Shown here piece by piece: positions 7,605 through 37,681 of a stretch of 64,000 nucleotides of DNA. The notes beneath the pieces were generated by a model. That model worked only from the letters and a program-made list of their open reading frames with translations. It made no database searches and was not told the DNA's origin. Source of the stretch: Nocardia ninae NBRC 108245 (GTDB lineage: Bacteria; Actinomycetota; Actinomycetes; Mycobacteriales; Mycobacteriaceae). The stretch covers positions 37,896 through 101,895 of the forward strand of contig NZ_BJXA01000027.1 of assembly GCF_007990755.1 (NCBI RefSeq), given 5' to 3'. Each line of letters opens with the position of its first letter. The first letter of the stretch is position 1. Both the position numbers and the translations under genes were made by a program.

Positions 7605-7696
7605 CCCGGCCTGCGCGGACACTTTCACGCGCCGTATCGCGGTTTTCGGCGCGGTGCGGCGATAACTGTCCATTCAGGCCGGGTTCCCGTGCGCCA

Positions 7697-8152: not shown

Positions 8153-8234
8153 CGCGGGCTCCCAGCGGGCGGTGGCGCGTCGCGGCGCGATCGACCGGCC
8201 ATCGGCCGATGGGGTCGGCGGTCTGTGTGTTCAT
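8139..8234 (-). CDS. 31-codon upstream frame overlapping the DUF4254-like start
   Basis: Short open frame with an ATG at 8234, 6 bases behind a consensus GGAGGA. It ends at 8139, inside the DUF4254-like gene. It codes for an Arg-rich peptide (MNTQTADPIGRW...) without recognisable features. Either it is a leader whose translation feeds ribosomes into the next start, or the two frames are one gene split by a frameshift. Evidence is the ribosome binding site and the overlap only. Confidence 0.35.
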   Translation of the reverse strand: MNTQTADPIGRWPVDRAATRHRPLGARDVRA

Positions 8235-8583
8235 CGTGCTCCTCCGGGTGACGTCAGGCGGGAGGCATTGCCCTGATGCCGGATCCGGGGATAAGCGTGC
8301 GCCACCCACCTCGGCGTGTCGGTGACATCGAGATGGCACAGCGATGACAGGTCGTAACAATCTTCTCCGCATCGCGTCGGGCCGCATTGTGAGGAAGACC
8401 GACCGGTTCGCGGCGGTCGACTATGGACCGTACGGATCCGCGTGCCGCAGCGACGAGTAGTCGCGCCGAATGACTCAATGTGGCAAATTATCTGCAAACG
8501 AATGGTTCGAGTTATGTGGCAGGGGTATAACCGGCATTGAAGCAGCCTCGGCAAACGCCATGGCGTAATCGGATAGCGAAGGG
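8235..8583. other. intergenic gap between DUF4254-like and channel genes
   Basis: 349 bp of divergent spacer. Only the promoter side of the channel gene stands out, an AT-richer stretch at about 8465-8515. I see no structured RNA or repeat in it. Confidence 0.5.
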
Positions 8584-8589
8584 ATGGGC

Positions 8590-9465: not shown

Positions 9466-9490
9466 GCACCCTGCTCGGTTCGAATGACGA

Positions 9491-9536
9491 ACGCGTCCGC
9501 CGTGGGCTCTCGGCCTACGGCGGACGCGTTTGTTCT
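9491..9536. terminator. bidirectional terminator hairpin
   Basis: Perfect 13-bp stem (ACGCGTCCGCCGT, 9491-9503, with 9517-9529) and a 13-base loop, followed by TTTGTTCT. It lies between the convergent channel gene and the 124-residue gene and can serve both. Confidence 0.85.
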
Positions 9537-9543
9537 ATGGCCG

Positions 9544-9918
9544 TCAGACGGGCTGCAGGGACGGGTGCAGGCAAACGCTCGCCAGGCGCAACTGCACCCA
9601 GTCAGCGTTCGCCCAGCTGCCGAGGTCGCCCGGTGCCGTGCTGGTCATCGACGCACCGCGATCGGCCGCGGCCTCGCGCACGTGATCGAGCAGTCCGCGT
9701 GCGTAGCCGGCGAGCAGCACGCTCACCGGAACGCGCGCGGATTCCTCGACGCCGAGGGTGAGGATGTCGCGCACCGCGGCGGCGTGCTGATCCAGCGCCG
9801 CCGACAGCGCGGGCAGCTCCGCGGCCGCGGCAAGCGCCGGTACCCCGTGCGTCTTGTGCAGGCGGTTCAAAATCTTGCGCGCCGACACTTCGAGCAACGC
9901 GGGGCCCAGCAGAAACAT
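9544..9918 (-). CDS. conserved hypothetical protein, 124 residues
   Basis: Soluble, Ala/Leu-rich helical protein with no signal peptide. I do not recognise the family with confidence. The start at ATG 9918 (MFLLGPALLEVSA) is the first in frame. It stands alone: convergent with the channel gene through the terminator at 9491, and 212 bp from the acyl-CoA dehydrogenase stop. Codon use is normal for the window, which favours a real gene. Confidence 0.6.
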   Translation of the reverse strand: MFLLGPALLEVSARKILNRLHKTHGVPALAAAAELPALSAALDQHAAAVRDILTLGVEESARVPVSVLLAGYARGLLDHVREAAADRGASMTSTAPGDLGSWANADWVQLRLASVCLHPSLQPV

Positions 9919-10130
9919 GTTCCTATGCTAGCAACCGGCGAGTCTTTATAGAACTGTGACGCTTCACCCAGTCGCTTTTGCTGGAAAAGTGCGCTCCAGC
10001 AAATTGTCCGCACGAAAATCATTGGGGCAGAACCGGTTCGCGAAGCCACTCATAAAGGCGACTGACCGGTACGAATTCGGTGCGGCCGAACGTACGGTGG
10101 CCGGGCGTCGAGTTCAGTCCACGGACGCCG

Positions 10131-11306
10131 TCACCGGAAGGCGTTGGCGTCGGTGAGCGCGCGCCCGAGCACCAGCTGATGCACCTCCGCCGTGCCCTCG
10201 TAGGTGAGCACCGACTCCAGGTTGTTCGCGTGGCGCAGCACCGGATAGTCCAGCGTGATGCCGTTCGCGCCGAGAATGGTGCGACATTCGCGGGCGATCG
10301 CGATGGCCTCCCTGGTGCTGTTCAGTTTCCCGGCGCTGACTTGCTCGGGTGTCACCACGCCGCGATCCTTCAACCGGCCGAGGTGCACGGCGAGCAGCTG
10401 ACCCTTGCCGAATTCCAGAGCCATGTTCGCCAGCTTCGCCTGCGTCAGCTGATACGCGGCCAGCGGCTTGTCGAACACCTCGCGGGTGCGCGCGTAATCG
10501 ATGGTCGCGGCCAGACAGTCGCGGGCCGCGCCGAGCGCGCCGAAGATGATTCCGAACCGTGCCTCGCTCAGGCAGGCCAACGGCGACGCGAGCCCGCGCG
10601 ACTCCGGCAGCACCGCATCGGCGGGCAACCGGACATCGTCGAAGTCCAGTTCGGCGGTCACCGAGGCGCGCAGCGACAGCTTGCGGTGCATCTCGCGCGC
10701 ACTGAATCCCGGCGTCCCGGCGGGCACCAGGAAGCCGCGGATCACCTGCTTGCCCTCGTCCTCGGTCTGCGCCCACACCACCGCGATGTCAGCCACCGAG
10801 CCGTTGGTGATCCACATCTTCGAGCCGTTGAGCACCCAGTCGGTGCCGTCGCGCTTGGCCCTGGTCCGCATGCCGCCCGGGTTGGACCCGAAATCAGGTT
10901 CGGTGAGCCCGAAGCAGCCGAGCGCACGGCCCGCCGCCATCTCCGGCAGCCACTGCTGCTTCTGCTCCTCCGAGCCGTACTTGTGGATCGCGGTCATCGC
11001 CAGTGAGCCCTGCACCGACACCATGCTGCGCACGCCGGAATCGACCGCCTCCAGCTCCTGGCAGGCCAGCCCGTACATGGTGGCCGACATGCCGGCACAG
11101 CCGTACCCCTCCAAATGCATACCGAGCAGCCCGACCTCGCCCAGCTGCGGCGCGATCTCGCGGGCCGGGAAGGTGCCTTCCTCGAACCAATCCGCGATAT
11201 GCGGTCGCAGGCGTTGATTCGCGAAGGTCGCGACGGCATCGCGGATCTCGCGCTCCTCGTCGGACAGCAGGGAGTCGATCGCGAACAGTTCTTCCACAGT
11301 CACCAT
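10131..11306 (-). CDS. acyl-CoA dehydrogenase, glutaryl-CoA-dehydrogenase-like
   Basis: 391-residue flavoenzyme with the three acyl-CoA dehydrogenase domains. The FAD/substrate loop is CFGLTEPDFGSNPGGM (about residue 131), followed by KMWITNG in the beta domain. The C-terminal domain has REVFDKPLAAYQLTQAKLANM, and the catalytic glutamate is in LTYEGTAEVHQLVLGRALT near residue 368. The YEGT context, VQGSLAM and the C-terminal LGRALTxxNAF resemble glutaryl-CoA dehydrogenases more than medium- or short-chain enzymes, so lysine/tryptophan degradation is a reasonable guess. No ETF or other pathway gene is adjacent. Confidence 0.85.
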   Translation of the reverse strand: MVTVEELFAIDSLLSDEEREIRDAVATFANQRLRPHIADWFEEGTFPAREIAPQLGEVGLLGMHLEGYGCAGMSATMYGLACQELEAVDSGVRSMVSVQGSLAMTAIHKYGSEEQKQQWLPEMAAGRALGCFGLTEPDFGSNPGGMRTRAKRDGTDWVLNGSKMWITNGSVADIAVVWAQTEDEGKQVIRGFLVPAGTPGFSAREMHRKLSLRASVTAELDFDDVRLPADAVLPESRGLASPLACLSEARFGIIFGALGAARDCLAATIDYARTREVFDKPLAAYQLTQAKLANMALEFGKGQLLAVHLGRLKDRGVVTPEQVSAGKLNSTREAIAIARECRTILGANGITLDYPVLRHANNLESVLTYEGTAEVHQLVLGRALTDANAFR

Positions 11307-23726: not shown

Positions 23727-23951
23727 CCCCGGCACCGAACACGCGCGCCCGCTACTGAGCGCGGACAGGGGGCCCAGCGGAGGTAAACCGTTGGGCCATC
23801 GTCTGATCCGGGTTGCCGCCAGTAGCCGTTCGCTGTTGCTGCTCGGCAGTGGTGCCCCGGCGGGGGATGGGTGGATCGAATTCCCTACGGTCCTCGTGAT
23901 GCCGGCATTCCTGGCAGTCTCTACCGATCTGCTGCTCCGAGGAGTCGTGTC

Positions 23952-24503
23952 ATGAAGATTCCAACCCCGTTGTCGCCGGCGAGCGCTATTCCTGTCACGG
24001 ATTTCGCCGACCCGTGTACCCGTGCTCTGCTGGCGAACAACGGCACCACCACACTCCTGCTGGAGGCCGCCCTGCGCACCTCGGTCACCGTCGTGGTCCA
24101 CGACCAATACCTGCAGAGCGCAGGCGAATTGCCGCCGGAGGTCGGTCGGGCCCTGCAGCTGCAGGGGCAGCACAGAGTACTGGTGCGGCACTCGATCCTG
24201 ATGACGCCTGACCAGCGCCCGGTCTCCTGCAACCGGGCAATCATCGCTGCGGCACTCGATAGTCCGCTTTCCGCTCTCGGCGACGACCGGCACACGCCAC
24301 TCGGCCGGACCCTGCTGTCGGCCGGTGTCGAACAGTATCGACAAGTTCTGACCACCGGTCACCATCCGTGGCCCCTCGCCGCCGAGTTCCGGGCCGCCGC
24401 GGGCAAGACCTACCTCGTCGGTATCGACGGCCGACCTCGGCTGCACCTGACCGAGACCTACAATCCGGACCTGTTCTCGGCCGATCTGGACCCGGTCACC
24501 TGA
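23952..24503 (+). CDS. chorismate-pyruvate-lyase-like (DUF98) protein
   Basis: 183-residue protein whose pattern LLANNGTTTLLLEA ... RVLVRHSILMTP ... SPLSALGDD ... TPLGRTLLS resembles the chorismate lyase/UTRA fold, including M. tuberculosis Rv2949c, which makes 4-hydroxybenzoate from chorismate. The Arg/Gly/Glu residues that bind the product cannot all be placed by eye, so activity is uncertain. The ATG at 23952 is used. It is the last gene before the restriction island. Confidence 0.6.
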   Translation: MKIPTPLSPASAIPVTDFADPCTRALLANNGTTTLLLEAALRTSVTVVVHDQYLQSAGELPPEVGRALQLQGQHRVLVRHSILMTPDQRPVSCNRAIIAAALDSPLSALGDDRHTPLGRTLLSAGVEQYRQVLTTGHHPWPLAAEFRAAAGKTYLVGIDGRPRLHLTETYNPDLFSADLDPVT

Positions 24504-24577
24504 CGGGACGATCGGCCGCAGTGCCGCGCATCCCCGGCGGATCTACCACCTACCGACCTGTGCATCGTGATTGTGAG

Positions 24578-24725
24578 ACGGTGGAGTCATGAATCGGCTC
24601 GGGAACGCGACCTCTCCGTACCTGCGGCAGCATGCGGACAATCCGGTGCATTGGCAAGAGTGGGATGCGGCGGCGCTGGGGGAGGCGCGGGAGCGCGATG
24701 TGCCGATTTTGTTGTCGGTGGGGTA
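24578..24725. repeat. long direct repeat flanking the restriction island, left copy
   Basis: 148 bp identical, base for base, to 29298-29445. It covers 11 bp before the start codon and the first 45 codons of the DUF255 gene. Just beyond (24726-24753) the two copies still align at protein level but differ at about half the bases. Confidence 0.97.
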
Positions 24726-24765
24726 TGCGTCGTCTCACTGGTGCCAGATGATGTCTCGAGGCTAA
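24589..24765 (+). pseudogene. 5' stub of the DUF255/thioredoxin gene (58 codons)
   Basis: Reads exactly as the first 46 codons of the intact gene at 29309, then diverges. The catalytic YASCHWCHVM becomes YASSHWCQMM, and the frame ends four codons later at TAA 24763. The first cysteine of the CxxC motif is lost (TGT to TCT). Because the start codon and the 11 bases before it are intact the stub could be translated, but it cannot make a functional protein. It marks the left end of the inserted restriction island. Confidence 0.92.
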
Positions 24766-24786
24766 AACTCGTCCGCACAACATCTT

Positions 24787-25638
24787 TCAGTAGACCGAGT
24801 CGCCTTCTTGCCTTGTCTGGTTGCGGAGGGCGGGCACATTGGGCGTATGTGCCGCTTGCTGCCGCGTTTGCGCTGCGCGCCGCTCTTGAAGGAGTTGTTC
24901 AATGAGATTAGCTGCTTTCCCGACATCTTCGTGTTCCCAGACTCGTACGACTGCCCAGCCTGCCTCGATCAATCGACCGGTGGTTTCGTGGTCGCGTGCC
25001 TGATTGCCGACGATTTTTTCCCGCCAGAACTGCTCGTTTCTCGTAGCGGACCGGTAGTGGTCTGGGCATCCATGCCAGAAGCACCCGTCGACGAACACCG
25101 CGACTCGGTCACTGTGGAACACAAGATCTGCCCGCCGTCGGAATTCTGGTATCGGTCGAGAGTCAACCCTGTAGCGCAGGCCGCGCTGGTGTAGCAGGCG
25201 CCGAAGAGCCAGTTCAGGGGTTGTGTTCTTACTTCGGTTTCCCTGCATAGAGGCTCGGACTGCCTTAGATGAGGCGGTCGAATCCGGCGGAAGCGGTGCC
25301 TCGGTCAGAAGACCTCGTTCCCTCGCACGACGCCAGGCGGCCGCGAGGTTTTTGCCGCGAGTCTCATGCTCGACTTCACAGATGTATCGCTCGATAGTCC
25401 TCCCGCCCTGAGACCATCTGAGATATGCGCGGACGCGACGTGTCCTTCGGTAGAGTCGGAGACTAACTGAAGCGCGCGCTAAACGTCCGTTGCCGAGAAC
25501 TATCGTGCGACGTTGCCGCCCGCCAGCCGCCCGATCCTGCTCAATCGCCGGGACCGCCGCATCGATGCGCCTTTTGTAAGCTTGTTCCGGCGGTAGCCGG
25601 TCCTTCCAACGTCCCGTATCGCGCGGGCTGGTCCGCAT
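24787..25638 (-). CDS. vsr: very short patch repair (Vsr) endonuclease with N-terminal extension
   Basis: Nicks T:G mismatches left when 5-methylcytosine deaminates, protecting sites of the partner methylase. The Vsr core covers residues ~128-255: MQGNRSKNTTPELALRRLLH, RRADLVF with the catalytic Asp (D171), FVDGCFWHGC with zinc ligands, and AVVRVWEHED. Residues 1-125 are not part of a standard Vsr (~140 residues): a basic segment, then a beta-rich RAYLRWSQGG/ERYICEVE module that could bind DNA. The ATG at 25638 starts 4 bp after the methylase stop, so the two are co-translated. Confidence 0.92.
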   Translation of the reverse strand: MRTSPRDTGRWKDRLPPEQAYKRRIDAAVPAIEQDRAAGGRQRRTIVLGNGRLARASVSLRLYRRTRRVRAYLRWSQGGRTIERYICEVEHETRGKNLAAAWRRARERGLLTEAPLPPDSTASSKAVRASMQGNRSKNTTPELALRRLLHQRGLRYRVDSRPIPEFRRRADLVFHSDRVAVFVDGCFWHGCPDHYRSATRNEQFWREKIVGNQARDHETTGRLIEAGWAVVRVWEHEDVGKAANLIEQLLQERRAAQTRQQAAHTPNVPALRNQTRQEGDSVY

Positions 25639-25642
25639 GTGC

Positions 25643-27013
25643 TTAATGTCCCACAGATGCGAGTGCGTCCGCCACGGCTCGAGCGAAAAACTCCCCCAGG
25701 GCGACTGGCACGGCATTGCCGAGTTGTCGCATCTGTTCACCCCGAGGTCCAGATCCACGCCAGTCGTCAGGAAACGTCATCACTCGCGCTGTCTCACGAA
25801 CTGTCATGTACCGATGCTTGTAGCTCTGGCCGTCCTTCTCTCGTTCGTCCAGAAGCATTACCGACTCACCTCCAGGCACGCCGTGCACGCCTGCTTTCAC
25901 GGTCTTAGCGGGACGATCCAATTCATTCGGGGTGTGCCCTTTATAGATTCGCGCACCTGGCCATCCGATATGATCAGATATCCCCTTCGACTCTCCAAAA
26001 TTGAACTTCTCATGGAGTCGGCTCAAGTCGACTGGTGGCAGGGCGGGAAGGGGTATCTTTGAATCTGTGCCAAAACCTTGAATCGCATCTCGCAACGTGC
26101 GGAACGGCTTGAGGTCATCATCCTTGATGATTTTTGGTATACGGTCCTGTACTTTTCGGCGCACATGTAGGGGAACCTCGTGGCGCTGCCAGTAGGGTCC
26201 GTCATCTTTACGCATCGAACGGAACAACGCCGCCTCTGAGTACTGAGGGGTGCCTACATATTTCTCAAAAGCGTGAACGTCGACGCGGAGATCCGCTCGG
26301 AAGGCCACCAGAACGACGCGGTTACGGACTTGAGGGACGCCGTATTCGGCAGCATTTACCGCAACCTTCACGACCTTGTAGTGTTCCGAGTCTTCGTCGT
26401 CGGCAATATTGGGCTGTCGAAGGATTTTGGTCAGCCTACTATTGTGGTCCTGCCACCGGTCCTCGGGATCCCTCTGCTCAAAGGGAAGCCTGAGCTCATT
26501 CTGTATGTACTCGAAATATTCGGCGAACGACGGCCGAAGTAGTCCCCGGACGTTCTCGCAGATCACCGCCTTCGGTCTAATTTGACGGACTGCCTCGAAC
26601 ATCGCGGGAAACATATTTCGTTTGTCCTCGTCACCCTTGGCGACCCCCCCGGCGCTGAACGGCTGGCAGGGCGGGCCACCGGCAAGCACCGCGACTTTGC
26701 CGCACAGGGCGGACATGTCGAGATCCTGGACATCTCCGGGATATAGTGGCGCCGGCTGGCCTGGTTCCGGGGGGACAGGGCGGACGCGTTCGACCGAGCC
26801 CATGGGGCGGGCATCGTGAATGCGCTCGATGCCATCCATACCCAAGGTCTTCGGATCGCTGCGTTCCAGAGTCTCGCACGCCCGACTGTTGAACTCGTTG
26901 AACAGCAGTGGGCGGAAACCGGCTCGATGGACCCCCATCGCCAGCCCGCCCCCACCAGCAAAAAGCTCCACACTCGTACGTAGGGGGGTGGCTTCACTTT
27001 GCTGCTCAGGCAT
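25643..27013 (-). CDS. DNA (cytosine-5-)-methyltransferase
   Basis: 456-residue C5 methylase. Motif I is VELFAGGGGLAMG (about residue 15), the catalytic cysteine is C116 in GGPPCQPFSAGG (motif IV), motif VI is ENV at 153-155, QVRNRVVLVAF is motif VIII, and RQLGNAVPVALG near the end is motif X. The target-recognition region lies between VIII and IX. With the Eco29kI-like nuclease next door the site may resemble CCGCGG, but this is a guess. Start ATG 27013; the frame is open upstream to 27190. It is divergent from the nuclease gene with about 200 bp between. Confidence 0.96.
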   Translation of the reverse strand: MPEQQSEATPLRTSVELFAGGGGLAMGVHRAGFRPLLFNEFNSRACETLERSDPKTLGMDGIERIHDARPMGSVERVRPVPPEPGQPAPLYPGDVQDLDMSALCGKVAVLAGGPPCQPFSAGGVAKGDEDKRNMFPAMFEAVRQIRPKAVICENVRGLLRPSFAEYFEYIQNELRLPFEQRDPEDRWQDHNSRLTKILRQPNIADDEDSEHYKVVKVAVNAAEYGVPQVRNRVVLVAFRADLRVDVHAFEKYVGTPQYSEAALFRSMRKDDGPYWQRHEVPLHVRRKVQDRIPKIIKDDDLKPFRTLRDAIQGFGTDSKIPLPALPPVDLSRLHEKFNFGESKGISDHIGWPGARIYKGHTPNELDRPAKTVKAGVHGVPGGESVMLLDEREKDGQSYKHRYMTVRETARVMTFPDDWRGSGPRGEQMRQLGNAVPVALGEFFARAVADALASVGH

Positions 27014-27211
27014 GCGGGAACCATACCGCGGGGCATGCTCGAACGCACGTGCGACACGGCGAGTCGATCGCGTTCTGCGGATCTGTGGTCCGGATAGGCG
27101 GCGCCGCCCGTTTCCCGATGCGTTAGCGTCTCGGATGAGTCCTCCATCCTTGAGCCGCCGGGTACGCTCATCGGTCGAGAAGGCAATCACGTATGGGAGG
27201 GCGCAAGTCGG

Positions 27212-27991
27212 GTGTCGGAGAGTGGTGAATTCAGGCTCAGCATCATGAGGGCGCTGGGGGACCAGCTGGCGGACGGGCTACGAAGATTGACGCCAGCACC
27301 CCTCGATATGACTAGAATCGGGAAATTAGAGGCCCGTCCGGGTGTCTACCAGCTTTACGAAGGTGGCTGTCTCGTATACGTAGGTAAAGCTGATAAATCT
27401 CTACCCCAGCGGCTGACTAAACACTATGTAAAGCTGACGGCACGGCTGGCCCTGGGGCCTATGACCTTTACATGTCTCTATGTCGATGAGGATTTGCACG
27501 CGGTCGCGCCTGAGCGTCTGTTGATTCAACGCCAGAAGGATCAAGGGCTTGCTCAATGGAACTTTAATGGATTCGGAAGTAATGATCCAGGGAGGAATAG
27601 AGATGAAACGCTCTTCGAGTCGAACCATTTCGACTCCCTTCATCCTGCGGATTTGGCTCACGTATGCAAGGGCCTCAGGGCTAACGTATACAGAGCTGAT
27701 CTGCTGCTAAAGCAGATCAAAGCCGTTCTGCCCTATCTGTTCCGCTATGAGTCAGCGAGTTTCCACAGACAGGTTGAGGTCCGAGTTGACCACGACGATC
27801 CGACGGCAGATGAGCTCTTCGCCGCCGTGGGTATCGCCATCAACAAAGCGGATCCCAAGTGGCGGATCACGGCACTGCCGGGGTATGTGATCATGTACCC
27901 GAAGCCAGGACCGTATCCCAGCGCGCGTAGGCAGTATCCAGCTCCCGTGAAGCCGAATACCGCTGGGCGGGTAGACATTTCGTGGGCATGA
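27212..27991 (+). CDS. GIY-YIG type II restriction endonuclease, Eco29kI-like
   Basis: 259-residue protein. GVYQLY (44-49) and LVYVGKA (54-60) are the GIY and YIG strands. R67 and H71 stand four apart as the catalytic Arg/His of Eco29kI do, and E101 and N117 (in WNFNGFG) fit the metal-binding Glu and the Asn. GFGSNDPG...LHP also matches the Eco29kI/NgoMIII group. It should cut unmethylated sites of the divergent methylase. Start is GTG 27212. Base composition is lower in GC than the chromosome. Confidence 0.8.
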   Translation: MSESGEFRLSIMRALGDQLADGLRRLTPAPLDMTRIGKLEARPGVYQLYEGGCLVYVGKADKSLPQRLTKHYVKLTARLALGPMTFTCLYVDEDLHAVAPERLLIQRQKDQGLAQWNFNGFGSNDPGRNRDETLFESNHFDSLHPADLAHVCKGLRANVYRADLLLKQIKAVLPYLFRYESASFHRQVEVRVDHDDPTADELFAAVGIAINKADPKWRITALPGYVIMYPKPGPYPSARRQYPAPVKPNTAGRVDISWA

Positions 27992-28221
27992 TACGAGCGG
28001 AAGGTGGCGTCGGGCGTCGATCGCTAGTAGATTCTGCCAAAATGGTGCGTCATTGGTGATCGACCAGTATCCGCCGGAGGGCGGGATCAAACGTATCCGG
28101 AGAGGGCAGGGCAGCTGACCGTGTTAGCGGCTGTTTCACATGGACGAGCACGTGCCGCGAGCGGCGGGAGCTCGTATATTTACTTTAGCAACTCGTATAC
28201 TCTTAGACAACAAGGAGCCTA

Positions 28222-28992
28222 GTGACTACGGCGGTGCTCGCGCCTTGCTTGCAGGACAGTGTGAATCGATACGCGCGTGCGCTAATCGTACCGTCGCGGC
28301 TACTCGCCCTACATCCCAGGAAGGCTGGTGGGGCGGGTAATGCCGCTGCCCTGGCACCGGCGATCGTGCTCGGCGTGATCTCGGCATTCGAAGGGTTTGT
28401 GGAGGACTTTTCCGCGACAGCTTTCCACCTGCAAGGGCGAAGCTTCGGGCAAATAGTCAAGAAGGTGAACTTTAGTAACCCCGACGTTGAGCAATTTGAA
28501 GCTCTAGTCAAGAAAGAGTTTCCAATCCTAGCACCAATGATCGGAGACGACTTCTCGGTTGACGTCTGGGATCCACCCGAAGTCGGCACCCGGCTGTGGG
28601 AGCCCGCGCGGGTCGGCTGGCCTCAAGCCCGACACACTGCTGGAGGCTGGATGCAGGTGCGGCACTGCTTGGCTCACGGGCTCGCCAGTGGCTGGCAGAG
28701 TGAGGTGTGGCCCGGCCCGGTGAAAGCGAACGCGACACCCGCTTCAGCGGTCCTGAAGCCTATGAAAGATGGCAAACACTCACTCGTCCTTCATGGGGCG
28801 ATTACTTGCGCGCGGGTCTACAGGGCGGCCGCTGAGCATCTCGGAAGACTCATAGCGGCCCAGGTGGGTGAGACGACTTCGTGGTCTAAACTGCCAGATT
28901 TTCCGATGTATAAGACCTCATTGGAAGAGTATTTGGCCGCCAACCCGCCAAGGGGGAATGAAGACAATCCAGGAGTCCTCACCTCCGAGTAA
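28222..28992 (+). CDS. HEPN-motif protein, putative RNase of the restriction island
   Basis: 256-residue helical protein. R147-x4-H152 in QVRHCLAHG is the catalytic signature of HEPN RNases, and the preceding helices (EGFVEDFSATAFHLQG) carry the conserved acidic positions. It resembles the MAE_28990-type HEPN proteins found beside defence genes. GTG 28222 has an excellent AAGGAG 5 bases upstream. It lies downstream of the endonuclease on the same strand, 230 bp away, and belongs to the island. A role as a backup abortive-infection effector is inferred. Confidence 0.72.
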   Translation: MTTAVLAPCLQDSVNRYARALIVPSRLLALHPRKAGGAGNAAALAPAIVLGVISAFEGFVEDFSATAFHLQGRSFGQIVKKVNFSNPDVEQFEALVKKEFPILAPMIGDDFSVDVWDPPEVGTRLWEPARVGWPQARHTAGGWMQVRHCLAHGLASGWQSEVWPGPVKANATPASAVLKPMKDGKHSLVLHGAITCARVYRAAAEHLGRLIAAQVGETTSWSKLPDFPMYKTSLEEYLAANPPRGNEDNPGVLTSE

Positions 28993-29297
28993 ATTTCCGC
29001 GTCGATACACTCATCTGAGTTTGTACCAGTGCATTAAAGCTCGTCGGTAAAATTGAGAAACCCCTGTTCCGAAAGGCGCATCAGACTGGAGAGTGTTCCC
29101 CACCGCAGGAGGTACCGGCTGCATTCTATGCAGCGTTCGAATGCGCCGTGCCACATGGCATCCGGATGTGAACGACAGTGACGGTGGAGTTCCTTCGGCT
29201 GCTGACGATCCCGACGCCCGAGCGAGACGCTCGCCTGTAACGGGTGCAAAATGGCAGTATGGAGAGTCTTGCCGCGCCGACGCCGGGGCGCTGTGGC
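28993..29297. other. island right end, gene-free
   Basis: About 305 bp between the HEPN gene and the right direct repeat. An open frame continues in from 29093 to the DUF255 start but has no coding character. This segment must now supply the promoter for the intact DUF255 gene, because the original upstream region lies left of the stub. Confidence 0.5.
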
Positions 29298-29445
29298 ACG
29301 GTGGAGTCATGAATCGGCTCGGGAACGCGACCTCTCCGTACCTGCGGCAGCATGCGGACAATCCGGTGCATTGGCAAGAGTGGGATGCGGCGGCGCTGGG
29401 GGAGGCGCGGGAGCGCGATGTGCCGATTTTGTTGTCGGTGGGGTA
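29298..29445. repeat. long direct repeat flanking the restriction island, right copy
   Basis: Identical to 24578-24725 over 148 bp and part of the intact DUF255 gene (first 45 codons plus 11 leader bases). The distance between copies is exactly 4720 bp. Confidence 0.97.
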
Positions 29446-31357
29446 CGCGAGCTGTCACTGGTGTCATGTGATGGCGCACGAGTCGTTCGAGGATGTCGCT
29501 ACTGCGGAGTTGATGAATGCGAACTTCGTGTGTGTGAAGGTGGATCGGGAGGAACGGCCTGATCTGGACGCGGTGTACATGAATGCGACCGTGGCGATGA
29601 CGGGGCAGGGGGGCTGGCCGATGACGTGCTTCCTCACGCCGAAGGGGGAGCCGTTCTACTGCGGTACGTATTACCCGAAGTTGCCGCGGGGTGGGATGCC
29701 GTCGTTCACGCAGTTGCTCACCGCGATCACCGAGACTTGGCAGCAGCGGCGCGATGAGGTGCACAAGGCGTCGGCGCAGGTGACCGAGGCGCTGCGGGCG
29801 CAGGCCGGGGGGTTGCCGGACTCGGATCTCACGCTCAGTGCGGAGCTGCTCGATCATGCGGTGGCGGCGGTGCTGCGGGATGAGGATCCCGAGCATGCGG
29901 GATTCGGTGGGGCGCCGAAGTTTCCGCCGTCGGCGTTGCTGGAGGGTTTGCTGCGCAGTTGGGAACGGACCCGTGATCCGGCTGTTCTCGCGGCGGTGAC
30001 TCGGACGGCCGATGCTATGGCGCGGGGTGGGATCTACGACCAGTTGCGCGGGGGTTTCGCGCGTTACTCTGTCGATCCGGCCTGGGTGATACCGCATTTC
30101 GAGAAGATGTTGTACGACAATGCCCAATTGCTGCGTGCCTATGGGCATTTGGCTCGGCGCGCGCCGGTTGACGAGCCGGGGTCGTTGGCGCGCCGGGTCA
30201 CTCGGGAAACCGTGCAGTTCCTGCTCGATGACCTGGGGACCGAGCACGGCGGCTTTGCCTCTGCCCTCGACGCGGACACCCACCTCGAACCCGGCCAGCC
30301 CGGTGTGGAGGGGGCGACCTACGTCTGGACACCAGCCGAGCTGGTCGGCGAACTCGGGCCGATCGACGGTGCCTGGGCCGCAGAGTTTTTCGGCGTGAGC
30401 ACCGCGGGAAACTTCGAGCAGGGCACCTCGGTGCTCACCCGATACACCGATCCCGCGCCTGCCGATACCGATCGGCTCGAGCAAGTCCGCGCCGCGCTGT
30501 GCAAGGCGCGTGACAGCCGTCCGCAACCGGACCGCGACGACAAGGTGGTCACCGCCTGGAACGGAATGGCCATAACGGCATTGGCGGAAGCGGGAGCCGC
30601 ACTCGGCGCGGCTGACTGGGTGTCCGCCGCAGTCCGCTGCGCCCGATTCCTGTTGTCCGAGCACGTGGTCGACGGCCGGGTGCGCCGCGCCTCGCTCAAC
30701 GGTGTCGCGGGTGCGTCGCCCGGCGTGCTGGAGGACTACGCATGGCTCGTCACCGGTCTGCTGGCCCTGCATCAGGCCACCGGCGAACTCGATTGGCTCG
30801 ATGAGGCACAACGGTTGCTGGACACGGCAATCCAGCACTTCGCCGACCCGAACATCCCGGGCAGCTGGTTCGATACCGCCGACGATGCCGAAATCCTGGT
30901 CACCCGTCCCCGTGATCCCATCGACGGTGCCACCCCCGCCGGTGCGTCCTCGCTCGCCGAGGCGCTGCTCACCGCGGCCGCGGTCAGCGAGGCGGACCGA
31001 GCCGTCCCGTACTTCGCGCTGGCCGAACAAACCCTGCAGCGCGGCGCCGTCGTCCTGGCACGCGCGCCGCGGTCGGCGGGCCAGTGGCTCACGGTCGCCG
31101 AGGCCGCGCTCCGCGGTCCCCTTCAGGTCGCCATCGCCGCCGAAGCTCCGGGCGAGTCCAGTGCACTGCTCGCCGCCGCTCGTGCCGCGGCACCTGGCGG
31201 CACGATAGTCATTGCCGCCCCGCCGAACTCGGTTCCCCTGCTGGCCGACCGACCGCTGGTGCACGGCGAGCCTGCCGCCTACGTCTGCCGCGGCTCGGTC
31301 TGTGACTTGCCGGTATCCACCGTCGCCGAGCTGCAGGAAGCCTTGGCACGGCCGTAG
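29309..31357 (+). CDS. DUF255 thioredoxin-domain protein (YyaL/Rv1084-like)
   Basis: 682-residue cytosolic protein. The N-terminal DUF255 thioredoxin-like domain (1-165) has the CxxC site in YASCHWCHVM (about residue 49), then an alpha/alpha toroid related to glycosyl hydrolases and epimerases (GGIYDQLRGGFARYSVD, FEKMLYDNAQLLRAYG). Length fits Rv1084 (673). The precise reaction of this conserved family is unknown. The ATG at 29309 lies within the duplicated segment; everything upstream of 29298 is island sequence. Confidence 0.95.
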   Translation: MNRLGNATSPYLRQHADNPVHWQEWDAAALGEARERDVPILLSVGYASCHWCHVMAHESFEDVATAELMNANFVCVKVDREERPDLDAVYMNATVAMTGQGGWPMTCFLTPKGEPFYCGTYYPKLPRGGMPSFTQLLTAITETWQQRRDEVHKASAQVTEALRAQAGGLPDSDLTLSAELLDHAVAAVLRDEDPEHAGFGGAPKFPPSALLEGLLRSWERTRDPAVLAAVTRTADAMARGGIYDQLRGGFARYSVDPAWVIPHFEKMLYDNAQLLRAYGHLARRAPVDEPGSLARRVTRETVQFLLDDLGTEHGGFASALDADTHLEPGQPGVEGATYVWTPAELVGELGPIDGAWAAEFFGVSTAGNFEQGTSVLTRYTDPAPADTDRLEQVRAALCKARDSRPQPDRDDKVVTAWNGMAITALAEAGAALGAADWVSAAVRCARFLLSEHVVDGRVRRASLNGVAGASPGVLEDYAWLVTGLLALHQATGELDWLDEAQRLLDTAIQHFADPNIPGSWFDTADDAEILVTRPRDPIDGATPAGASSLAEALLTAAAVSEADRAVPYFALAEQTLQRGAVVLARAPRSAGQWLTVAEAALRGPLQVAIAAEAPGESSALLAAARAAAPGGTIVIAAPPNSVPLLADRPLVHGEPAAYVCRGSVCDLPVSTVAELQEALARP

Positions 31358-31367
31358 CGGCGCGGCG

Positions 31368-32954
31368 TCAGTCGGTTTCCGTTGCGGCGGTACGAACCTC
31401 GACGACCGCGCTGCGCTCGATCGTCGGGTCGGCGGTCCCGGACGGTGCCATGTCGGCCCCCGGTACGGCGGCGGCCGGGTGGTCCAGATCGGTCCAGCAT
31501 GCGGTCGGCTTCTTCATGCCGCGCAGCAGGATCGTCTCGTAGAGCGTCCATTTCGTGCGCTCGTGCTCCGCAGCGGCCTCGATGACCGCGCCGCTCACCA
31601 GAATTCGGTGTGGCACCTCTTTGGCCTCGGTGGTGAGCCTGGCCGCCTCGTTGACCGCATCACCGATAACGGTGTACTCCAACCGAGTGTCGGTGCCGAC
31701 ATCGCCCGCGAACACCCGACCGTGCGCGACACCGATGCCGATATCGAGTTCACCGGCCGCGACCACCTCGTCCCGGATCCGTCGAGCCGCGCGCAAAGCA
31801 GGAGTCGCGTTGTCCCGCAGGGCGATCGGTGCGCCGAAGATACACAGCGCGGCATCACCCTCGAACTTGTTGACCAGCCCGTTGTTCTCCTCTGTCGCCG
31901 TCACAACGGTCGCGAGCAACCGATTGAGCTTGGCGACGAACTCCTCGGGCGGCAACCCGGTGGACAGTTCGACCGAGCCGGTCACGTCGACGAACAGCGC
32001 GGTCACCACCCGCACGTCACCGGTCAGATCCACCCCGCCGGCCAGCGCGCGCTCGGCCACCTCGGTGCCGACGTGCCTGCCGAAAAGGTCCCGCATCCGT
32101 TGGCGCTCACGCAGATTGGCGACCAGCTCGTTGACCGAGTTCTCCAGCCGCCCGATCTCGCTGGTGCTGCCCACCGGGACGCGCACATCGAGGTCGCCCC
32201 GGGTGATGCGGTCCAGCGCCCGGCGCAAGGTGCGCATCGGCGTGGCCACCGCACGGGCCAGGAAGGCGGTGGCCAGCGCGCCGACCCCGAGGCCGACCAC
32301 CGAGAGGTAGATGGCGGTGCGCACCCGGTCGGACGGGTCGGCCACCGGATTGGCCAGCACCACGATCAGCATCAGCAGCGGCAATGCCGCCGCGACCGCC
32401 CAGCTCACCACCACCCGGACCAGCACCGACGAACTCCAGTGCATGGTGGGTCCGAGCACCGCAGCCACGATCGGAATGGTCGGCCGGATCAGCCGATCGA
32501 CGATGAGGAACGTGATCCCTACCGATTCGAACCCGCCGAAGGTGAACAGGGCCGCCATCACCGCGGGATCGTTGTCCGGCGTCAGCCGCATCAGCATCAC
32601 CGTGGCGACGATGACACCGGTGATCCATACCACGAACGCGCGTGCGGTGATGGTGATCGGCAGCCGGAGCAGCTGCCGCGCCTCCTCCTCGGTCGGTTTC
32701 CGCCCTTGATCGAGCCAGCCGAAATGCGAGGAGCGGTCCCGGATGGCGAGCGCGACCCCGGCCACGAAGCCGATCGAGGGATAGATACCCACCAGCGCGG
32801 TGGAGCGGATCCAGTCGGGGCCGAGCCTGCTGAGCGAGCCGCTGAGCCACAGCTCGGTGATGATGACGGCCAGACCGCTGAGATTGGCGGTGATCACCAC
32901 CGCCGCCAGCCCCGCGCGGGCTTTGAGGGCCCAGATGACCAGCCGGGCGATCAT
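31368..32954 (-). CDS. class III adenylate cyclase, six-TM plus HAMP
   Basis: 528-residue membrane cyclase making cAMP from ATP. Residues 1-245 hold about six transmembrane helices, then a HAMP linker (ATPMRTLRRALDRITRGDLDVRVPVG) and the catalytic domain from about 315. Metal-binding Asp residues are in LFVDVTGSVELS and the substrate-binding Lys/Asp in VNKFEGDAALCIFG and YTVIGDAVNEAARL, the last also holding the transition-state Asn and Arg. The layout is that of M. tuberculosis Rv1318c-1320c/Rv3645. Convergent with DUF255. Confidence 0.93.
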   Translation of the reverse strand: MIARLVIWALKARAGLAAVVITANLSGLAVIITELWLSGSLSRLGPDWIRSTALVGIYPSIGFVAGVALAIRDRSSHFGWLDQGRKPTEEEARQLLRLPITITARAFVVWITGVIVATVMLMRLTPDNDPAVMAALFTFGGFESVGITFLIVDRLIRPTIPIVAAVLGPTMHWSSSVLVRVVVSWAVAAALPLLMLIVVLANPVADPSDRVRTAIYLSVVGLGVGALATAFLARAVATPMRTLRRALDRITRGDLDVRVPVGSTSEIGRLENSVNELVANLRERQRMRDLFGRHVGTEVAERALAGGVDLTGDVRVVTALFVDVTGSVELSTGLPPEEFVAKLNRLLATVVTATEENNGLVNKFEGDAALCIFGAPIALRDNATPALRAARRIRDEVVAAGELDIGIGVAHGRVFAGDVGTDTRLEYTVIGDAVNEAARLTTEAKEVPHRILVSGAVIEAAAEHERTKWTLYETILLRGMKKPTACWTDLDHPAAAVPGADMAPSGTADPTIERSAVVEVRTAATETD

Positions 32955-33050
32955 GGCGTTCGCACGCGCACGACGGCCCGTCCGGGCAGCGCGACGCTGC
33001 GAACGGCAGTGACTAGGAACACGATCGAGCAGCTTAGCCGTTGGTGCTGG

Positions 33051-33767
33051 TCACCGGAGGACGACGAGCCAGACCGCCACATAGTGGGTGAGCGCAGCGA
33101 GCACGGTCGCGGCATGGAAGAACTCGTGATGACCGAAAACGGTCGGCCACGGGTTGGGCCACTTCGTGGCGTAGAGGATCGCGCCACCGCTGTAGAGCAG
33201 CCCGCCGACCAGCAGCAGGATCAGCGGCGCGATGCCGATCTGGGTGTTCAGCTGCCCGGCGACCGGCACGATCGCCCAGCCGAGCAGCAGGTAGAGCGGC
33301 ACGCCGACCCAGACGGGGGCGGTGGGCCACAACAGTTTCAAGGCGACACCCGCCAGCGCGCCTGCCCATACCACTAGGAGCAGCGTCTGTCCGGTGCGGC
33401 CGGGCAGACCGAGCAGTGCGAACGGTGTGTAGCTGCCCGCGATGAACAGGAAGATCATCGAGTGATCCGCGCGCTTCATCCGGATCCGGGCCTGCGGTGT
33501 CGGCCAGGTCACCCGGTGATAGATGGCACTGATGCCGAACAGCCCGCATACCGTCAGCCCGTAGATGGCGGTGGACCAGCCTGCCGTCGCGGAGAGGGTG
33601 GCGGCCCTGGCGACCAGCACGATCGCGGCGATCGCCGCGATGCCGACCGCCCAGGTGTGGATCCAGCCACGCATCCTGGGTTTGAGCAGCGCGTCGGGCG
33701 CCGACTCGGCGGCTGACCCCGATCCTTCGGTCACTCCGGTGTCTGCCGCACCGACCGATTCGGACAC
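33051..33767 (-). CDS. hemolysin III / PAQR-family membrane protein (Rv1085c-like)
   Basis: 238-residue protein with seven hydrophobic segments and the HlyIII/YqfA signatures: SAIYHRVTWP (metal-site His near residue 83), MIFLFIAGSYTPFALL and FGHHEFFHAATVLAALTHY with the paired His residues. These belong to the PAQR superfamily, probably zinc-dependent membrane hydrolases; haemolysis is a historical name. The start is GTG 33767 behind AGGAGGTAACTC, one of the best ribosome binding sites in the window. Confidence 0.92.
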   Translation of the reverse strand: MSESVGAADTGVTEGSGSAAESAPDALLKPRMRGWIHTWAVGIAAIAAIVLVARAATLSATAGWSTAIYGLTVCGLFGISAIYHRVTWPTPQARIRMKRADHSMIFLFIAGSYTPFALLGLPGRTGQTLLLVVWAGALAGVALKLLWPTAPVWVGVPLYLLLGWAIVPVAGQLNTQIGIAPLILLLVGGLLYSGGAILYATKWPNPWPTVFGHHEFFHAATVLAALTHYVAVWLVVLR

Positions 33768-33888
33768 GAGTTACCTCCTGGTTGAACTCACCGGTAACCT
33801 ACGGAACCGTAGGTTTCGGCTCTTCGTCACTGTACCGGGAGCATCCGGTCGCTGCCGGGATCGTGCCGGTGGGGCGTAGGGTGGCCGC

Positions 33889-34668
33889 GTGGAGCTTCCG
33901 GTTCAGGTGCGGGGTTTGCCGTATCGCATCTACGAAGCCCGGCTCATGAAGCAGCTGGCCGGCAAACAACATCCCCGACACGTCGCGGTGATGTGTGATG
34001 GTAATCGGCGGTGGGCCCGGGAAAACGGATTCACCGATGTGAGCCACGGACATCGGGTCGGCGCCGTGAAGATCGCCGAGCTGGTCGGCTGGTGTCAGGC
34101 CGAGGGCATCGAGATGGTCACCGTCTACCTGCTCTCCACCGAGAACCTGCAGCGCGACCCCGACGAGCTGGAGACGCTGTTCGAGGTGATCACCGACGTG
34201 GTCGAGGAACTCTCGGCGCCGGAAGAGAATTGGAGCGTGCGGATCGTCGGCTCGCTCGACGGGTTCCCGGAGCTGATCGCGAAGCGCATGCGCACCGCCG
34301 CCGAACGCACCGAGGGCCGCGACGGGGTGCACGTGAACGTGGCCATCGGCTACGGCGGCAGGCAGGAGATCACCGACGCGGTGCGCTCGCTCGTCCGCCA
34401 GGAGATCGCCGCGGGGGAGACCGGCGAGGATCTCGTGCAGTCGATCACCGTGAACGCCATCGGCCAGCACCTCTACACCTCCGGTCAACCGGACCCGGAC
34501 CTGGTCATCCGCACCTCCGGAGAACAGCGACTCTCCGGATTCCTGCTGTGGCAGAGCGCATACTCGGAGATATGGTTCACCGAGGCATACTGGCCGGAAT
34601 TCCGGCGTGTGGACTTCCTGCGGGCACTGCGCGACTTCGCGGCACGGCACCGCCGCTTCGGGATCTGA
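33889..34668 (+). CDS. short-chain (2Z,6E)-farnesyl diphosphate synthase, cis-prenyltransferase (Rv1086-like)
   Basis: 259-residue cis-prenyltransferase that adds one isoprenyl unit to geranyl diphosphate, feeding decaprenyl phosphate for cell-wall arabinogalactan. Signature regions: VAVMCDGNRRWARENG with the catalytic Asp, STENLQRDP, VNVAIGYGGRQEI, and DLVIRTSGEQRLSGFLLWQSAYSE. The very high likeness to Rv1086, including the YTSGQPDPDLVIRTSGE block, supports the short-chain Z-FPP assignment rather than undecaprenyl synthesis. GTG start at 33889. Confidence 0.94.
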   Translation: MELPVQVRGLPYRIYEARLMKQLAGKQHPRHVAVMCDGNRRWARENGFTDVSHGHRVGAVKIAELVGWCQAEGIEMVTVYLLSTENLQRDPDELETLFEVITDVVEELSAPEENWSVRIVGSLDGFPELIAKRMRTAAERTEGRDGVHVNVAIGYGGRQEITDAVRSLVRQEIAAGETGEDLVQSITVNAIGQHLYTSGQPDPDLVIRTSGEQRLSGFLLWQSAYSEIWFTEAYWPEFRRVDFLRALRDFAARHRRFGI

Positions 34669-34698
34669 CGCCCGCCTCGAAACATCACGGGGCGCGTC

Positions 34699-35310
34699 AT
34701 GAGTGAGCTCGACAGCCGCTCCGGCGGACAACAGGCACCCGCCAAGTCGAACGAGCCGGTGCCCTACATCAGCTACGAGGAGTTCGGCAGGCGGTTCCTC
34801 GAATACGCCGCCACCGAACAGCGCATCCTCGGGGCCTTCGACCAGTTGACCGGCGCCGCCTTCGATTTCGGCCCGATCGGGGTCGGCCCAGGCCGGCTGG
34901 CCAAGGCGAGCGCGCAGGTGCAGCTCGGTCAGGCCCAGGTGCGCCGCGATCTCGACGAGGTGATCTCCTTCGCGCTGAAGATCCCGTTGAGCGTCGACAT
35001 GCTCATCGACCTCGCGCTGGACAAGCACCGCTTCGAGGTGGACGGCCACATCCATTTGCAGCTGATCGTGCGCGCCGCCGAACCGCTGCGCGTGGTCATC
35101 GACATCGCTACTCCGCGCTCCAGCGACGTGCGGATCAATGTCGCCACCGACACCATTCGCGGGCAACTGCTGCGCATCCTCGCCAGCGTCGACCAGGAGA
35201 TCCGGCGATTCATTGCCCGCTATATCGCCAAGGAGATCGACAAACCGCACATTGCCGCGGCCCGCGATATCAATGTGGCGAAACGCCTCGACGAAGCCTG
35301 GAAATTGTAA
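34699..35310 (+). CDS. conserved hypothetical protein, 203 residues
   Basis: Soluble protein without signal or membrane helix. It has a helical N-terminal half (YEEFGRRFLEYAATEQRILGAFDQLTG) and a C-terminal region of beta strands with IHLQLIVRAAEPLRVVIDIA followed by helices rich in Arg. I do not recognise the family. The ATG at 34699 lies 30 bp after the Z-FPP synthase stop on the same strand, so the two are probably one operon, and the stop nearly meets the convergent coaA stop (6 bp). Confidence 0.7.
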   Translation: MSELDSRSGGQQAPAKSNEPVPYISYEEFGRRFLEYAATEQRILGAFDQLTGAAFDFGPIGVGPGRLAKASAQVQLGQAQVRRDLDEVISFALKIPLSVDMLIDLALDKHRFEVDGHIHLQLIVRAAEPLRVVIDIATPRSSDVRINVATDTIRGQLLRILASVDQEIRRFIARYIAKEIDKPHIAAARDINVAKRLDEAWKL

Positions 35311-35316
35311 GCGGGA

Positions 35317-36240
35317 TCACAATTTACGCAGGCGCAGTCTATTGATGCTGTGGTCGGCGTCCTTGCGTAAGACCAGGGTGGCGCGCGGCCGGGTCGGCAG
35401 AATGTTCTCCACCAGATTCGGGCGGTTGGTGTTGTTCCAGATCTCCTGGGCCGCGCCGGTCGCCTGGTCGTCGGTGAAGGCGGCGTAGTGGTGGAAATGC
35501 GCGTTCGGGTCAGCGAACGCGGTCTTGCGCAGCGCGAGAAACCGTTGCACGTACCAGTTCTCGATGTCCTCGATGCGGGCGTCGACGTAGATGGAGAAGT
35601 CGAACAGATCCGAGACCATCAGCCGCGGCCCGGTCTGCAGCACGTTCAAGCCCTCGACGATGAGAATGTCGGGTTGGTGCACGCAGTGGAACTTGCCGGG
35701 CACGATGTCGTAGGAGATGTGCGAATACACCGGCGCGCACACCTCGGCCGCGCCGGATTTCACCTCGGTGACGAATCGCAGCAGCTTGCGGCGGTCGTAG
35801 CTCTCCGGGAACCCCTTGCGGTGCATGATGCCGCGACGGGTGAGTTCGGCGGTGGGATAGAGGAATCCGTCGGTGGTGACCAGATCGACGCGCGGATGGT
35901 GGTCCCAGCGGGCCAGCAGCGCCTGCAGCACGCGGGCGGTGGTGGACTTGCCGACCGCGACGCTGCCCGCGACACCGATCACGAACGGCACCTGCTGATC
36001 GGGGTGGGTCTCGCCGAGGAAGGTCGCGGTCGCGGCGAAGAGCCGCTGGCGCGCGGCGACCTGGAGATGGATGAGTCGAGCGAGCGGCAGATAGACCTCC
36101 GCTACTTCTTCGAGGTCGATCTGTTCGCCGAGACCGCGCAGGCCCCGCAGTTCTTCCTCGGTGAGCACCAGGGGAGTCGACTTTCGCAGTGTGCGCCACT
36201 GTTTCCGGTCGAATTCCACATACGGACTGGGCTCGCTCAT
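35317..36240 (-). CDS. coaA: type I pantothenate kinase
   Basis: 307-residue bacterial PanK that phosphorylates pantothenate, the committed step of coenzyme A synthesis. The P-loop [12 protein letters not shown] is at 89-100, then [32 protein letters not shown] and the C-terminal [20 protein letters not shown]. The ATG at 36240 ([10 protein letters not shown]) is chosen over 36249 as the family N-terminus. It corresponds to Rv1092c. Confidence 0.96.
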
Positions 36241-36484
36241 TCGTCCCACTTACCCGACGCTCCAGTTCGGCAAACGCGTACACATACCGTGCCGGCTCCG
36301 TGTGATTCGGTCTAACTCTCGCCGCATAACCGAATTCTGCTCTGCCTCAACAGCGTGCGAAAAGCGGGGTACCGATAAGGGCCTATCCGGGACGATGCCG
36401 ACGGCTTTCACCCGGGCGAGGACGGGGCGGCCGCACGCGATTATGCCGCGCGCGGGCGCCCGCTGAGCGACTAATGTCGGGCGG

Positions 36485-37681
36485 ATGGCAGCGCATCCAC
36501 TGGTGACCGAGTACCTGCGGCTCGGCTTGGCCTTCGACCGGCTCGAGGACGGATTCGTCGACGCGTACACCGGCGATCCGGCGCTGCGTCGTGACGTGCA
36601 GAACGCCCCCGCGCCGGAGCCGAGGCAGCTGGCCCGCCGGGCCGCCGAGCTACGCGCCGAGTTGCCCGAGGCCGGGCTGAGCGCGGAGCGCACCGAATTC
36701 CTCGACGTGCACCTGCGCGCGCTGGAATGCTCCGGCCGCAAGTTCGCGGGGGACGACATCGGTTTCGTGGACGAGGTCCGCGCCTACTTCGACGTGGACA
36801 TCGCGCCGGGCGACGTCGAGGACTACCGGGACGCGCACCGGCAGATGGACGAGGTGCTGGCCGGGGACGGCTCGCTGGCCGAACGGATGGCAGCGCACCG
36901 CAAAGCCGACGAGATCCCGCCGGAGCGGCTGCCCGCCTGCGTCGAAGCCTTCTCCAGCGCGCTGCGTGAACTGGTCCGCGAGCGCTATCCACTGCCCGAC
37001 CACGAACACGTCACCTACGAGGTGGTCGGCGACAAGCCCTGGTCCGGTTTCAACTACTACCTCGGCAACTTCCACTCCCGCGTCGCGATCAACTCCGACC
37101 TCAAGCAGCACATGACCCATCTACCGACCCTGATCGCGCACGAGTCGTATCCGGGGCACCACACCGAGCACTGCCGCAAGGAGGCCGGGCTCGTCGCCGC
37201 AGGCCAGGCCGAGCAGACCCTGTTCCTGGTGAACACGCCCCAGTGCCTGATGGCCGAGGGCCTGGCCGACCTGGCCCTGCATTCCATCGTCGGTCCCGGC
37301 TGGGGCAAGTGGGCCCAGGAGATCTACGCAGACCTCGGCCTGCGCTTCGATGGTGAACGCGCGGAGCGACTTTCGACCGCGGCGGCCGGGTTGATCAGCG
37401 TCCGGCAGGATGCGGCCCTGCTGCTGCACGATCGACACCGCAGCGAGGACGAGGTCGCCGAGTTCCTGCAGACCTGGAGCCTGGTCACCCCGATCCGCGC
37501 CCGCCAGTCGTTGCGTTTCCTGTCCTCGCCGCTCTGGCGCGCCTACATCTCCACCTATGTGGAGGGCTACCGACTGCTCGGCGACTGGCTCGACCGCGCC
37601 ATCGACGCGGACGAGCGCGCCGATCGCTTCCGTCGCCTGCTCGACGAACCACTGACACCGGGCGCGGTGCGCCGCGGCTGA
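36485..37681 (+). CDS. DUF885-family putative metallopeptidase
   Basis: 398-residue protein of the DUF885 family. The zinc site is HESYPGHHTEH (about residue 219), an HExxxGHH arrangement, with a probable third ligand Glu in LMAEGLADLA. No signal peptide, so cytosolic. The family contains carboxypeptidase-like enzymes; the substrate is unknown. It is shorter than many DUF885 proteins (~550), lacking a long N-terminal part. A strong bidirectional terminator follows its stop by 9 bp. Confidence 0.83.
   Translation: MAAHPLVTEYLRLGLAFDRLEDGFVDAYTGDPALRRDVQNAPAPEPRQLARRAAELRAELPEAGLSAERTEFLDVHLRALECSGRKFAGDDIGFVDEVRAYFDVDIAPGDVEDYRDAHRQMDEVLAGDGSLAERMAAHRKADEIPPERLPACVEAFSSALRELVRERYPLPDHEHVTYEVVGDKPWSGFNYYLGNFHSRVAINSDLKQHMTHLPTLIAHESYPGHHTEHCRKEAGLVAAGQAEQTLFLVNTPQCLMAEGLADLALHSIVGPGWGKWAQEIYADLGLRFDGERAERLSTAAAGLISVRQDAALLLHDRHRSEDEVAEFLQTWSLVTPIRARQSLRFLSSPLWRAYISTYVEGYRLLGDWLDRAIDADERADRFRRLLDEPLTPGAVRRG

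Follow-up and report, generated by a model that had tools for sequence, protein, structure and literature searches.

How a group of restriction-modification (RM) genes came to lie between two identical copies of the start of one gene is the question raised by a locus of Nocardia ninae NBRC 108245. The window, that is, the whole stretch of 64,000 nucleotides that was analysed, belongs to contig C27 (NZ_BJXA01000027.1) of a 9.7-Mb draft genome, and the duplicated gene encodes a thioredoxin-like protein with a DUF255 domain. An insertion was found at this point of the window, together with an edge that recurs in other Nocardia genomes, conserved ends in other members of the same island family, and no detected recombinases. 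The explanation that is held here, with moderate confidence, is that the start of the DUF255 gene is an integration site for Nocardia islands without a recombinase of their own, that the window island is one of them, and that gene conversion later acted on its repeats.

The repeat and the interrupted gene start

Direct sequence comparison showed that positions 24578-24725 and 29298-29445 are identical at all 148 bp, as a sequence-only reading of the window had stated. Using these 148 bp as a query, only two matches were found in the whole genome, both at this locus, and the repeat is therefore not a product of chance. The extent given for the duplication did not stand, however. The 148 bp are enclosed in a longer imperfect repeat (24572-24753 against 29292-29473; 182 nt, 95% identity), the ends of which have diverged, with mismatches at two of the first six and eight of the last 28 positions. 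A clean target duplication would suit this pattern, a perfect centre with diverged ends, less well than gene conversion does. The features of the repeat and the host gene are as follows.

23871..24503, + strand: native left-flank gene, also present in the closest relative, G079 (by comparison with that genome)
24572..24753, + strand: left repeat copy, the displaced start of the DUF255/thioredoxin-like gene with native upstream flank; perfect over 24578-24725, diverged over 24726-24753
24589..24765, + strand: stub open reading frame (ORF) of 58 codons, ATG at 24589 and stop at 24763-24765; similarity to the gene stops near +165, the point at which other Nocardia stubs stop too
29292..29473, + strand: right repeat copy, the start of the intact gene (repeat comparison)
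29309..31357, + strand: intact host gene of 682 codons, DUF255, thioredoxin-like (Pfam Thioredox_DsbH/DUF255, E 3e-74 on a longer ORF)

The ORFs 24589..24765 and 29309..31357 bear out the earlier description of a 58-codon stub on the left and an intact gene on the right. That the island was inserted is supported by G079 (94% identity in the DUF255 gene), in which the gene start is uninterrupted at the island's insertion point. The left flank (24390-24725) there runs directly into the sequence from 29446 onward, and 24390-24753 and 29292-36663 of the window align to one unbroken stretch. The proposal that the island was inserted and that the host gene survived is upheld by this continuity and by relatives of the RM module at other loci. 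The single copy expected in a relative was also found, though G079 is not a virgin site. It carries its own 3.4-kb insertion directly upstream of the gene, with ABC-3C-type genes (CTD10, DUF2326, PADLOC PDC-M68) and with flanks that form a 218-bp direct repeat of 93% identity over another stretch (-199 to +18). Nearly the same place is thus occupied in two sister species by different insertions, each with long repeats. The G079 insertion occupies reverse strand positions 6799-10645 of locus L041 (G079:C1:8282000-8300000).

The perfect 148 bp mask the origin of the start of the intact gene, that is, whether it was borne by the island. The bases directly upstream of the right copy, TGTGGCAC, are like the allele of another species (G065) and unlike the native leader. 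The tail of the stub has a similarity of 0.87 to the allele of G121 versus 0.73 to that of G079, which represents the native allele.

The DUF255 gene start in other Nocardia genomes

To place the window in the genus, up to about 19 kb upstream of the DUF255 gene were collected from 121 further genomes, some contigs being shorter. The 122 gene copies were used as queries against 125 upstream sequences (2.14 Mb), with 850 bp of the gene tested. Eighteen partial gene copies were found in 16 of the 122 Nocardia genomes, window included, all of them co-oriented with the gene. Sixteen of these stop at +163 to +170, which is the edge of the window stub, and none derives from beyond +170. The window stub, which ends at about +165 upstream of the intact gene and in the same orientation, shares edge, gene and orientation with 15 other copies, and its left flank is native. 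Direct repeats were detected at 16 of 114 loci with probes from the gene start versus 4 of 342 with control probes, and tandem stubs occur in G072 and G024. The claim that the RM unit itself made the 148-bp target duplication is not supported by this survey, in which the same edge is found with other cargo.

Defence-type cargo was recognised by family (RM, Abi or toxin-type) in the window, G063 and G046 (a PIN domain), and was assigned in G088 and G130 by DNA similarity to G063. The G004 island carries a DUF4365 protein, that of G049 gave a match to DoxX, the cargo of G042 looks metabolic by eye, and four proteins of the G027 and G072 islands gave no family match. Defence cargo is thus frequent at this site, not universal. 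The island-borne leaders of loci L151, L177, L131 and others contain an inverted repeat of the TTGCC-N-GGCAA type about 100 bp before the gene, perhaps an operator.

The edge coincides with a core that resembles an attachment (att) site, at about +157 to +165, with the consensus CAYGTGATGG. Directly after this core, alignment revealed about 35 bases that are common to the stubs of several genomes, and these form a left end. Its pattern was found at 11 sites in 10 of 150 genus genomes, with none for the reversed-pattern control. Ten of the 11 lie upstream of a DUF255 gene on the same contig and strand, the eleventh lies at a contig end, and G072 has two left ends in tandem. An order-wide draw gave the pattern in two of 397 genomes, both Nocardia, and a scan of named genomes gave 10 contigs, five of them from Nocardia and the other five taken as chance by organism alone. 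In viral contigs, the left end had one chance-like match and two other patterns had none.

In the right end the core region is repeated twice, at distances of about 155 and 134 bp ahead of the start codon. It was found by an 18-mer at 10 of the 124 chromosomal loci examined, and by a longer pattern in 10 of 150 genomes (control 0), of which eight have it at the DUF255 gene, one (G111) has it elsewhere and one (G229) is unplaced. A family-wide draw gave it in one of 301 genomes, a Nocardia, and it is also present on one Nocardia plasmid. Several islands have the left end without the right end, for example those of G063, G088 and G130. The ectopic right end of G111 (L246:6476-6648) is accompanied by a gene start that has decayed, and lies a long way from the DUF255 gene.

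A joined junction was found on the 329-kb plasmid NZ_CP107850.1 of Nocardia sp. NBC_00511, where leader, gene start, core and left end are joined at 310889-311246 (locus L233:14841-15198). The junction shares 86% identity with the G072 leader and gene start, and its own gene start is decayed and out of frame. The plasmid encodes a MobF relaxase, and a gene annotated as a site-specific integrase lies about 6 kb from the junction. The joined sequence resembles the att junction that would be expected of a free island and could be one; alternatively, it may be a relic. A phage search returned one match, which covers the terminal 116 bases of a 4.5-kb contig of faecal origin that has no annotation. 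This contig, listed as phage (L234; MT839133.1, 4425-4540), ends within a DUF255-like gene start.

That a new gene start moves with the cargo was shown in one set of three species. G063, G088 and G130 have a common AbiE and type I RM island, with blocks that are 92.6-95.0% identical. The first 135 bp of their DUF255 genes are similar at 0.90-0.93 versus 0.77-0.89 for the gene bodies. On the left, the homology sets in at the core; on the right, it fades out within the gene start. One and the same type I RM island, present in three species at L152, L154 and L118, has differing specificity subunits (HsdS) between near-identical neighbours. In G130, the gene body has a similarity of 0.94-0.95 to four relatives, the first 135 bp only 0.76-0.79, and the stub 0.81-0.89; its repeat contains a 50-bp perfect tract, similar to that of the window. 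Breakpoints were placed in 43 gene pairs, which had been picked for a first part less similar than the body, a choice that favours early breakpoints. The best breakpoints fell between +20 and +156, many of them at +99 to +126, and none at +165 to +600.

Island cargo and recombinase searches

Between the repeats, the sequence-only reading had placed a methylase, Vsr, a GIY-YIG nuclease and a HEPN protein, in AT-richer DNA without a recombinase. Family matches agree with the first three assignments, that of the nuclease being below the cut-off, and the HEPN assignment is putative and based on a motif. The guanine-cytosine content of the island is 0.53-0.64 vs 0.63-0.74 in the surroundings (500-base windows).

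24787..25638, - strand: Vsr mismatch endonuclease (likely start; ORF open to 25758; NCBIfam vsr 8e-35, Pfam Vsr 3.4e-18)
25643..27013, - strand: C5 cytosine methylase (likely start; ORF open to 27190; Pfam DNA_methylase 6e-47, NCBIfam dcm 8e-38)
27212..27991, + strand: Eco29kI-like (GIY-YIG) restriction endonuclease, divergent from the methylase (Pfam RE_Eco29kI 1.5e-6)
28222..28992, + strand: HEPN-like protein with an invariant R-x4-H, kept with RM genes in two other Nocardia genomes
28993..29297, + strand: rightmost segment of the island, as far as the repeat (search of genus genomes)

The nuclease scores 28.5 bits against RE_Eco29kI, slightly below the Pfam cut-off of 30.8, and no solved structure was matched by its sequence. 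The protein at 28222..28992 has no family match in Pfam, PADLOC or NCBIfam; it may be a HEPN protein, as judged from the R-x4-H motif (R147, H152), which is invariant in three of three homologues. For the segment 28993..29297, a search of 147 further genomes of the genus gave no match longer than 40 bp.

Relatives of the nuclease were found in eight of 198 genomes, that of the window included. At six other loci they adjoin a methylase and Vsr, and two of the six also have the HEPN-like gene. The search for this gene set elsewhere, which had been proposed as a check on long target duplications, found no long flanking repeats at any of the six, the longest match being 44 bp at 75%, besides a 63-bp contig-end overlap. 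The overlap belongs to L048 (G174:C25, 12,095 bases), an RM-module contig that is perhaps a circular plasmid.

The statement that the island has no recombinase held. On the window contig there is no match to Phage_integrase, the 18 matches in the genome all being off the contig, and none to Resolvase (complete lists). In 12 genomes, none of the Phage_integrase (PF00589) matches listed, down to about E 1e-4, lies inside an island. Among 22,054 ORFs of the surveyed loci, none matches any of the recombinases that were taken from these genomes as queries (18 tyrosine, 15 serine), a search that extended neither to DDE transposases nor to unknown enzymes; as a control, 16 of 18 tyrosine and 13 of 15 serine queries were recovered by other queries. 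An autonomous relative of the islands that carries an integrase was likewise not found in these ORFs. An integrase site that explains the junction had been named as grounds for rejecting the earlier reading, and this holds in part: the site proved recurrent and att-like, but no integrase was found there.

Competing explanations and known systems

In the preferred explanation, each island would bring along a copy of the initial ~165 bp of the DUF255 gene, often with its own leader. Insertion at the att-like core would leave the old start of the host gene as a stub on the left, and the copy brought by the island would complete the gene on the right, so that the gene survives. Gene conversion, or the repair of a recombination intermediate, may afterwards have removed all differences between the two window copies over 148 bp and left the ends diverged. 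The machinery of movement would act in trans, either as a site-specific recombinase encoded elsewhere or as RecA acting on the carried gene start, and islands could be lost by RecA between the repeats. The first choice leans towards an exchange at the core that is site-specific and catalysed by an enzyme provided in trans, after which RecA would drive conversion and loss; RecA alone is the main rival. The window island probably belongs to the family as a diverged member, and it is read here as an old, diverged occupation of the common site, the gene starts of which became identical afterwards.

A number of observations weigh against this explanation. The window island lacks the conserved left end: in a profile test, a score as high or higher was reached at 16265 of the 63964 positions in the window, which equals chance, and local alignments of the left end in the window were not significant except for one of 14 (p 0.034). 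The double repeat of the right end is absent from the window island by pattern searches. Full membership of the family on the basis of its ends was therefore rejected, as both tests were negative, and only position, orientation and edge are shared. The edges of the G079 duplication are unlike the common edge, two of the 18 stubs end at 112 and 115, and several islands have no recognisable defence cargo. The breakpoints in the 43 pairs of intact genes are not always at the core, and that of G088 falls at 156, 111 or 99 depending on the relative compared. Finally, no recombinase was found in any surveyed region.

This last point favours homologous recombination by RecA alone, in which islands with a gene-start piece of ~165-185 bp would enter (Campbell-type) or be swapped (as in minimal mobile elements), and the common edge and left end would go back to one founder. 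The mosaic breakpoints that several pairs show at +99 to +132, and the perfect tracts within diverged repeats in the window (148 bp) and G130 (50 bp), are also what RecA would leave. However, it accounts poorly for an edge and a ~35-bp left end that are identical to the base despite unrelated cargo, for tandem stubs, and for the breakpoints that lie at +150 to +156 in G130 and G072 and, when it is compared with one of its relatives, in G088. RecA alone is considered rather unlikely as the full explanation.

The window island might also be unrelated to the family, its edge coinciding by chance or by falling in a conserved stretch that is a hotspot for breakpoints. Its missing ends and the deviating edges in G079, its closest relative, agree with such an origin. 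Against it stand the gene, orientation and edge common to 15 other copies, since in a stretch of 850 bp an edge placed at random would be unlikely to fall only a few bases from +165; G121, among the nearest relatives with stubs, has the conserved left end. This alternative is judged unlikely.

A one-off insertion of the RM unit that duplicated a long target, as Nobusato and Kobayashi understood it, would suit the long perfect repeat around RM genes and the empty site in G079, but it is very improbable given that the common edge recurs with other cargo, that the RM module stands at six other loci without such repeats, and that perfect and diverged parts occur within one repeat; this type of duplication was set aside on the recurrent edge, the other cargo and the module's other loci.

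A wider proposal is offered tentatively, as possible rather than probable. The islands may be a genus-restricted class of cargo-only elements with defined ends, in which the first 165 bp serve as an attachment and rescue module and the recombinase is supplied in trans, perhaps by a plasmid such as that of NBC_00511. The site would then be a hotspot of defence exchange at which the promoter and first 55 codons of a gene are repeatedly replaced. If the preferred explanation is true, a clean-looking target duplication around RM genes would be the footprint of a recurrent, site-bound exchange without its own recombinase. One gene start, occupied in 16 of 122 genomes, would provide a defined place for following the turnover of defence cargo between species, and a test case for whether islands need a recombinase in trans or RecA only.

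No earlier report of the DUF255 gene as an integration site, or of such a defence hotspot in Nocardia, was found in the literature searched. The cargo itself resembles Eco29kI-type RM systems in its C5 methylase and in a putative nuclease of the GIY-YIG family, the Pfam match of which is slightly below the cut-off; here Vsr is added and, in three Nocardia genomes including that of the window, a HEPN-like gene.

Insertion of RM systems with long target duplication was described by Nobusato et al. (2000), as reported in PMC3031569. As outlined there, such insertions share with the window the RM genes, long direct repeats, an empty site in a relative and the absence of a recombinase. Unlike them, the window island has an edge that many genomes share although their cargo differs, a repeat that exceeds its perfect part, and an RM module that occurs elsewhere without repeats.

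Site-specific elements that target the end of a gene offer a second parallel. SXT, in prfC, is such an element, and it restores the gene that it enters. Islands of this type are further represented by the ssrA islands of Dehalococcoides (PMC3146451) and by the dusA islands (PMC8409611). To the extent that these accounts describe them, the likeness lies in the use of one target gene end, a gene restored from the element, tandem remnants and varied cargo. The Nocardia islands differ in that no integration module was found in or near them and that what they replace is the initial ~165 bp of a gene for a DUF255 protein.

A third parallel is given by the minimal mobile elements of Neisseria, which by the definition in PMC3082526 are cassettes without mobility genes that lie beside conserved genes and are exchanged by homologous recombination. 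The Nocardia islands are likewise cassettes beside a conserved gene in which no mobility genes were found, and they may be exchanged in the same way, with mosaic breakpoints in favour and fixed edges and conserved ends against; from that definition they differ by their conserved ends, the stubs with a fixed edge and the joined junction on a plasmid. RM target duplication, gene-end-targeting islands and minimal mobile elements each match part of the picture, and none matches all of it.

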